A stretch of 64,000 nucleotides of DNA, taken from contig NZ_LBCQ02000011.1 in assembly GCF_001014615.2 (NCBI RefSeq), positions 62,001 to 126,000 of the forward strand, given 5' to 3'. Position 1 is the stretch's first letter. Each line of letters starts with the position of its first letter. The notes beneath the pieces are model-generated. The model saw nothing but the letters and a program-made list of their open reading frames with translations, did not search any database and had not been told where the DNA came from. Position numbers and translations under genes: made by a program. The DNA is from Aquamicrobium sp. LC103 (GTDB taxonomy: Bacteria > Pseudomonadota > Alphaproteobacteria > Rhizobiales > Rhizobiaceae). Below, in pieces: positions 5,745 to 8,063 of the stretch.

Positions 5745-6194
5745 GCGGGCGGCACGGTTGCGCGCGGCACAAGCCGAGCCCGGGCGCCGCCTTTCCATGG
5801 CACTATACTTCCGGTTGTGGCCGGGCACTCATCGTCGACGCCGTGTTGCAGGAAGATCATGCAAGAGGGTTAAGCCAGCAGCAACCTTGCAACTCGTCCA
5901 CACCGGTGCGCTTCCGCCGCCATACGCCGATAGCCGCAGCCGCCGGGCGCTCGCGGCCACCTCTCGACGGATTGACAGTCGCGCTGTATTTCCCCGCGCG
6001 CGGAACCGGCTGCGACGCCCCTCGTTAGCCATCAGCCGAGAGGGACAATTGACAGCGCGTATATTAGGGATTCATAGTGCGCGCGCCGTTTGCCGGGAGG
6101 CATTGAGCGCCGGAATATGGGGCGTCGAGCGGGGTTTGGGATTTCGGAAAATGAGGCGAGACAAGTAGAGCCCGCAAAAATGGGCGAGGAACAC
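5745..6194 (+). other. Intergenic region with candidate promoter for the XRE gene
   Basis: 450 bases with no ORF I trust. TTGACA at 6049-6054, an 18-base gap and CATAGT at 6073-6078 form a plausible sigma-70 promoter for the XRE regulator, giving a leader of about 110 bases. The rest is GC-rich without an obvious repeat or stem-loop. In many Rhizobiales lnt lies immediately upstream of this regulator; it is not here. Confidence 0.45.
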
Positions 6195-6608
6195 ATGCCG
6201 GAAAACAAGAAAAAACCGAATCCGATCGATATCCATGTAGGCGGACGTATAAGACTGCGGAGAAACATGCTCGGGATGAGCCAGGAAAAACTTGGCGAAA
6301 GCTTGGGAATTACGTTTCAGCAGGTTCAGAAATACGAAAAGGGAACGAACAGGGTGGGCGCGAGCAGGCTGCAGTCGGCCGCCGCCGTCCTCGGCGTGCC
6401 CGTTTCGTTCTTCTTTGAGGATGCCCCAGGCCAGGAAGGGACGCCTCAGGGCGGATTCGCCGAGGAATCCTCGGCAAACTACGTCGTCGACTTCCTGAGC
6501 AGTTCCGAGGGTCTTCAACTCAATCGCGCCTTTGTAAAAATTTCTGATCCAAAAATTCGCCGCAAGGTGATCGACCTGGTAAAGGCCCTCGCGACGGACG
6601 AGGAATAG
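6195..6608 (+). CDS. XRE family HTH regulator, PraR/PhrR-like
   Basis: 137 residues. Residues about 13-68 form a lambda-repressor-like helix-turn-helix: GGRIRLRRNMLGMSQEKLGE, then LGITFQQVQKYEKGTNRVGA. The C-terminal part (residues 70-137) is a short tail ending in RKVIDLVKALA. The ATG has GAGGA just upstream; an in-frame ATG five codons earlier is an alternative. Small XRE proteins of this type sit ahead of metK-trmB in many Rhizobiales, and rhizobial PraR/PhrR regulators (quorum sensing, surface attachment, low-pH response) look like this. The PraR name is my inference from family resemblance, so no symbol is given. Confidence 0.85.
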   Translation: MPENKKKPNPIDIHVGGRIRLRRNMLGMSQEKLGESLGITFQQVQKYEKGTNRVGASRLQSAAAVLGVPVSFFFEDAPGQEGTPQGGFAEESSANYVVDFLSSSEGLQLNRAFVKISDPKIRRKVIDLVKALATDEE

Positions 6609-6645
6609 GGCAGGGATTGCTCCAATCCGGCGTTTGAAGAGAAAA

Positions 6646-6770
6646 AAGCCGCAGGATCTCACGCATCCTACGCAGGCTCCGCCGCCAGGTGGAACCAAGA
6701 TGCGGCTTGACGAACGAAGACCGGCTTCGCTAACAGATTGCCGTCCCTGCCGTTTCATCGGCAGTCTTCT
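6646..6770 (+). promoter_or_regulatory. Candidate structured leader of metK
   Basis: The non-coding stretch between the XRE gene and metK folds on paper into a three-way junction. A closing helix of eight perfect pairs (AAGCCGCA 6646-6653 with TGCGGCTT 6701-6708) encloses GGAT/ATCC (6654-6657/6665-6668) and GGCTCC/GGAACC (6675-6680/6691-6696, one mismatch). Downstream, CTGCCG-TTTCAT-CGGCAG (6747-6764) followed by TCTTCTTTC resembles a weak terminator 19 bases before the GTG start. It does not match the SAM-I, SAM-II or SAM/SAH consensus as I know them. It may be a leader RNA, a terminator for the XRE gene, or chance folding. Confidence 0.35.
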
Positions 6771-6788
6771 TTCAAGTGGGGGTTACCC

Positions 6789-8063
<1,275 letters not shown>

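Follow-up and report, generated by a model that had tools for sequence, protein, structure and literature searches.

A conserved hairpin at the predicted start of the metK mRNA in Rhizobiales, and an upstream fold that looks coincidental

The 5'-terminal stabilising hairpins of bacterial mRNAs combine a stable hairpin near the 5' end with an open ribosome-binding region after it, and the stem outlasts changes of sequence and loop. Other systems are described for SAM-cycle genes of Alphaproteobacteria. According to excerpts of the papers cited here, the SAM/SAH riboswitch (RF01727) precedes metK in Rhodobacterales (PMC2864571), SAM-II (SAM_alpha, RF00521) precedes methionine biosynthesis genes in Rhizobiales (PMC4239095, PMC9373788), and metK is controlled through a SahR operator in the same family as the bacterium studied here (PMC4239095, PMC8877191). 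Described alphaproteobacterial RNA elements include those of serC, speF, suhB, ybhL and metA/SAM-II (PMC1273637) as well as SAM/SAH (PMC2864571); those named in the excerpts of these two papers include no Rhizobiales metK leader. Likewise, titles and abstract openings among the matches listed from the open literature contain no report of a leader hairpin at Rhizobiales metK.

We analysed a window of 64,000 nucleotides from Aquamicrobium sp. LC103 (contig NZ_LBCQ02000011.1), in which metK is preceded by 180 nt of intergenic DNA. The features of the locus, in positions of the window, are:

6195 to 6608, plus strand: gene for an XRE-type helix-turn-helix regulator (Pfam HTH_3, E 1.4e-12), the context upstream of metK
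6646 to 6708, plus strand: three-way fold, in which the closing helix AAGCCGCA/TGCGGCTT encloses two hairpins; it lies in the DNA ahead of the promoter and is taken to be a chance fold
6707 to 6712, plus strand: predicted -35 box TTGACG of the metK promoter, kept in relatives at fixed spacing
6730 to 6735, plus strand: predicted -10 box CTAACA of the metK promoter, kept in relatives at fixed spacing
6742 to 6788, plus strand: predicted metK 5' UTR, its start placed from the -10 box
6747 to 6764, plus strand: leader hairpin CTGCCG-TTTCAT-CGGCAG (z -5.28 for 6742-6776), kept at this place in relatives
6765 to 6773, plus strand: T-rich stretch TCTTCTTTC ahead of the ribosome-binding site, whose position it tracks in relatives
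6778 to 6782, plus strand: likely ribosome-binding site GGGGG (aligned letters in relatives GAGGGG), its role presumed
6789 to 8063, plus strand: metK, S-adenosylmethionine synthetase, GTG start at 6789, three S-AdoMet_synt Pfam domains

The intergenic DNA is present as a single copy in its own genome (at E <=0.1) and hence is not a dispersed repeat. Elsewhere in the window an FMN riboswitch (RF00050) at 2031-2175 on the plus strand, with 116 bits, is the sole Rfam match over threshold.

The initial annotation proposed for these 180 nt a possible riboswitch-like leader, with the three-way fold as aptamer and the downstream hairpin as expression platform. As letters, the elements are all there. 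They lie between the XRE-type gene (ending at 6608) and metK; the 8-bp closing helix is perfect (AAGCCGCA at 6646-6653, complementary to TGCGGCTT at 6701-6708); the two inner hairpins are formed by AGGAT/ATCCT (6653-6657/6665-6669) and GG.TCCGCC/GGTGGA.CC (6675-6683/6688-6696); and CTGCCG/CGGCAG at 6747-6764 precedes TCTTCTTTC. The predicted fold gives the closing helix 7 pairs only, with A6653 pairing within an inner hairpin instead.

The same annotation had recognised no SAM riboswitch consensus, and covariance searches with Rfam 15 agree: no SAM or SAH family matches at metK. The region 6450-6950 yields only two snoRNA chance matches at E <=10, and the metK loci of ten relatives yield 0 matches at E <=1. 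A genome search with RF01727 returned no match anywhere, controls included, and hence shows no absence. SAM-II, also a SAM-cycle leader of the same bacterial order, does occur in the window's genome, where two copies of RF00521 exceed the cut-off (G000:C2:73422-73499 and G000:C6:112237-112313), but it has no match at metK here.

For the comparisons we assembled 170 metK loci (80 named from genome contigs, 30 from a search of 151 Rhizobiaceae genomes that includes the window's own genome, and 60 further stretches), of which 169 are usable (L037 was dropped as it has no recognisable MetK start), with 168 distinct upstream regions. Two genomes, G104 and G126, carry two metK copies each (L111/L113 and L108/L112), and L108 in G126 is without the conserved promoter described below. 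The genus of the window is represented by this genome alone.

Of 167 distinct 120-nt regions, 59 contain a promoter-like pattern close to TTGACG-N16-19-CTAACA, and in 44 of these the spacing is exactly 17 nt (shuffled mean 3.2, maximum 8 over 100 shuffled sets). Most of the patterns lie at a similar distance from the start codon. In the window it reads TTGACG-N17-CTAACA at 6707-6735. According to excerpts of the cited papers, the sigma-70 consensus of S. meliloti is CTTGAC(N17)CTATAT (PMC2573895), its -10 element is poorly conserved, and metK is among the genes with a predicted CtrA motif (PMC3616915). The -35 box and the spacing at metK agree with this consensus, and the -10 box matches it in 3 of 6 letters. 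From 60 promoter-like matches we derived a core set of 45 sequences (those with GTG starts, to which L150 and L154 were added, less identical leaders), which has spacings of 16 and 17 nt and differs from the 45 regions with exactly 17-nt spacing used in the box comparison below. The core set was used for leader z-scores, fold inspection, the count of 8-bp stems, the hairpin count, the XRE control and the loop and T-tract tests.

Two loci from different species of one genus, L197 and L210, contain an inverted repeat flanking the -35 box (AAGGCTGC/GCAGCCTT in one, AAGCCTGC/GCAGGCTT in the other) that is altered on both arms between the species. It could be an operator, perhaps one recognised by the XRE protein encoded next to it.

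The 3' arm of the closing helix (6701-6708) runs into the predicted -35 box (6707-6712), which would place the three-way fold upstream of the predicted metK mRNA. The layout of aptamer plus expression platform in one leader is not supported, because a conserved promoter separates the two structures. Moreover, the 180 nt as a whole fold no better than shuffled sequence (z -0.85, 35 of 200 shuffles as good). It might be argued that the fold is nevertheless a riboswitch or sensor confined to this genus, with its transcription starting further upstream or continuing from the XRE gene. Indeed, the 76-nt core folds independently (-27.8 kcal/mol, z -3.13, 1 of 200 shuffles as good), of 300 random stretches of this length in the window only 2 reach a z of -3.1, and the set contains no second genome of the genus. 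Against this, when the best 76-nt stretch is sought in each shuffle of the 180 nt, 88 of 200 equal the energy of the core; a perfect inverted repeat of at least 8 bp occurs in 17% of 2000 shuffles; the 3' arm shares bases with the conserved -35 box; Rfam offers no match; and the fold is not found at metK of the relatives tested. We therefore regard such a sensor as highly improbable.

Only one of the 45 core sequences, the window itself, has a stem of at least 8 bp (G-U allowed) at the homologous place, where 1.9 are expected from shuffles, and by eye the folds of the homologous region are mutually unlike. A covariance model of the three-way fold matched no other metK leader in the 151 Rhizobiaceae genomes; it recovered its own site (E 9e-29) and otherwise gave two weak matches (E 7e-4 and 1e-3), both away from metK. 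By eye the fold is also absent from eight loci (L192, L195, L196, L197, L203, L205, L206 and L210) that are close to the window in XRE-metK sequence within a set of 394 genomes. Given the promoter overlap, the missing conservation and the chance-level structure, the three-way fold is rejected as an aptamer; it looks like a coincidence in the DNA upstream of the metK promoter, and coincidence is also the best explanation for the overlap of its closing helix with the -35 box. Read on the minus strand, its 5' part (6672-6650) forms a terminator-like hairpin followed by CTTTTTT; such sites occur at chance level in the region.

The downstream hairpin behaves differently. Starting at the predicted transcription start, 6742-6776 has a z of -5.28 (0 of 200 shuffles as good), though the longer stretch 6742-6800 reaches -0.75 only. 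Hairpins of at least 5 bp are present in 43 of the 45 core leaders (shuffled mean 28.0, maximum 35), and hairpins with at least four GC pairs in 35 of 45 (shuffled mean 8.8, maximum 15). At the start of the XRE gene in the same genomes, taken as control, GC-rich hairpins are no more frequent than expected (3 of 27 against 2.6 shuffled), compared to 32 of 45 against 7.0 for metK. A point that weakens the case is that the mean z of the whole leader (-1.15) is close to that of the 64 nt upstream of the -35 box (-0.98), with +0.44 for the metK start; P <=0.05 is reached in 9, 9 and 0 of 45 sequences, respectively. What carries the signal in the metK leader is a short hairpin in a fixed position rather than the total folding energy.

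Of the 45 core leaders 41 were aligned, and covariation was scored on 19 of these, picked by eye as alignable. Over the six pairs of the stem 92.1% of cells are paired, with 11 cells and 3 pairs changed on both sides, and the covariation score of these eye-picked leaders is 0.299 against 0.135 for shuffled alignments (0 of 500 as high). Slid registers score lower on paired cells, doubly changed cells, pair types and covariation score, although one slide equals the 3 doubly changed pairs, and RNAalifold recovers the same helix. The GC core of the window's own hairpin runs in the opposite order to that of the 19 relatives, and in their alignment this hairpin is out of register. In Bradyrhizobium leaders a stem swap from CCGCC/GGCGG to CGTCG/CGACG can be seen by eye; since their alignment is misaligned in the 3' arm, they were left out of the counts. 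Taken together, the outcome that the initial annotation had named as refuting its proposal was obtained for the three-way fold, whose stem occurs in the window alone among the core sequences; compensatory changes are found in the downstream hairpin (in the 19 eye-picked leaders). A structured leader ahead of metK is upheld for the small hairpin only.

A covariance model of the leader, run on 61 genomes, gave a match at E <=0.1 in 47 of them. Fifteen of the 17 strongest matches (E <=1.7e-4) are at metK, six from training genomes and nine from outside. The remaining two (contig C12 of G013, E 7.6e-5, and contig C2 of G036, E 1.7e-4) have no methionine-cycle gene recognised by eye among their open frames. 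In the window's genome the model finds six matches, of which metK is the best (1.7e-5) and the next has an E of 0.0058. At the predicted start of the metK mRNA, the leader hairpin is conserved in evolution.

On balance, we favour the reading that this locus holds two separate things, a fold upstream of the promoter and a selected hairpin in the metK 5' UTR with a role in mRNA stability or translation start; we hold it to be somewhat probable. The metK mRNA would begin near 6742, and its first 23 or so bases would fold into the short GC-rich hairpin, with the T-rich stretch and the ribosome-binding site after it. Most likely such a 5'-end hairpin would slow mRNA decay that depends on the 5' end, a role suggested by general knowledge of bacterial mRNA decay, and it would leave the ribosome-binding region open and well spaced. 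Judged from sequence, the likeness to 5'-terminal stabilising hairpins lies in the stem near the 5' end, the open ribosome-binding region and the preservation of the stem despite changes in sequence and loop. What is foreign to that class is the complementary distribution with SahR-like boxes that we observe for the metK hairpin; the hairpin has probably been selected in the metK leaders of those Rhizobiales lineages that have no SahR-like operator at metK.

To describe this distribution, a SahR-like box was defined as a sequence resembling ATATAAAGATATATTTATGT with at most 5 mismatches, its likeness to the SahR motif being judged without the letters of the published motif. Of 168 regions, 40 have such a box ahead of metK, none of them in the promoter class of 17-nt spacing (0 of 45); the window's metK has none (12 mismatches of 20). 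With one genome per genus (62 loci), the hairpin is present in 23 of 26 promoter-class genera (5.5 expected), in 0 of 15 genera of the box class (0.1 expected) and in 15 of 21 others (4.6 expected). In the wider set, made up of 162 distinct stretches of 34 nt that have 200 nt of upstream sequence, the counts are 31 of 42 in the promoter class, 1 of 38 in the box class and 42 of 82 in the rest. Between promoter-class and box-class genera Fisher's test gives P 1.3e-8, a value that overstates independence as the classes partly follow phylogeny. Leaders of the box class are also richer in AT (GC 0.40 against 0.56), and with both effects the class contrast is weaker than its P value.

As in the described SahR control of metK within the family, the window's genome does contain SahR-like palindromes, three in number (L211, L212 and L214; contigs C23 and C1), but here none is at metK. 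One lies just before a gene for an ArsR-type helix-turn-helix plus methyltransferase protein (SahR-like), which by eye is followed by a metF-looking gene, one just before a metH-like gene whose product carries S-methyl_trans and Pterin_bind domains, and one just before ahcY.

These patterns might indicate that the hairpin is itself a regulatory RNA element, one that senses SAM or SAH or is bound by a protein such as MetK, and that replaces SahR control in these lineages. The mutual exclusion of hairpin and box across genera speaks for it, as do the boxes at the SahR-like gene, the metH-like gene and ahcY of the own genome yet not at metK, the fact that the best matches of the leader model are at metK, and the binding of RNAs by S. 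meliloti MetK, reported as cited in an excerpt of PMC8877191. Nonetheless, the loop varies in length and sequence, and conserved unpaired letters of a ligand-binding kind were not found in the hairpin. The most conserved unpaired letters flank the ribosome-binding site and are present also in the box class, which has no hairpin. Furthermore, there is no Rfam match, and the contrast between classes is confounded with base composition and phylogeny. We consider a regulatory element of this type quite unlikely.

A pseudoknot between the loop and the ribosome-binding site was evaluated on the core leaders and rejected: pairing is not in excess, with 119 of 500 shuffled loops as high. Like RF01727, the metK leader hairpin is a small alphaproteobacterial RNA structure situated immediately ahead of metK; it differs in that it has no Rfam match, no conserved loop and no excess of pairing between loop and ribosome-binding site.

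A wider proposal is that, in those Rhizobiales whose metK is outside the SahR regulon, a minimal 5'-UTR hairpin has taken over the feedback on SAM synthetase (through sensing of SAM/SAH, or binding by MetK or another protein). This too we regard as quite unlikely; were it true, control of a single gene would have shifted between the DNA level and the RNA level inside one bacterial family. Under the favoured reading of a hairpin with a role in stability or translation start, a false riboswitch candidate is removed and in its place stands a metK leader hairpin that is kept by compensatory change and found where metK is without a SahR-like operator. If functional, this hairpin would mark where control of SAM synthesis passes between repressor and RNA structure in rhizobia and their relatives.

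The initial annotation had called the downstream hairpin terminator-like, and an intrinsic terminator made of the hairpin and the T-rich stretch, serving attenuation of metK, is the remaining alternative. A GC-rich stem is indeed followed by T-rich sequence: in the 33 of 45 core leaders used for this test, the first 5 nt after the stem contain at least four T in 8 and at least three T in 20, and a pattern scan labels the window's site terminator-like. The same scan finds 2 such sites in 6000-6900 on both strands, against 1.6 expected, which is chance level. In the five leaders whose stem lies at least 13 nt from the ribosome-binding region the T content is 0.28 after the stem against 0.47 before that region, and in the hairpin-less box class the T-rich stretch is equally strong (6.4 against 5.5 T of 14). 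The T-rich stretch thus seems tied to the ribosome-binding site rather than to the stem. In addition, no alternative antiterminator was identified in the window's leader. The terminator reading is weakened by these observations and appears unlikely, even though both the stem and the T-rich run exist as described.

A further pattern concerns the ribosome-binding region itself. Self-complementarity of the form GGG-N3-6-CCC around the ribosome-binding site (6778-6788 in the window) is present at 90 of the 169 metK starts and in either promoter class. Covariation of its pairs does not exceed that of shuffles (258 of 500), and it may be a matter of sequence rather than structure; stems of at least 3 pairs around the site are found in 125 of 169 metK starts, against 68.6 expected.
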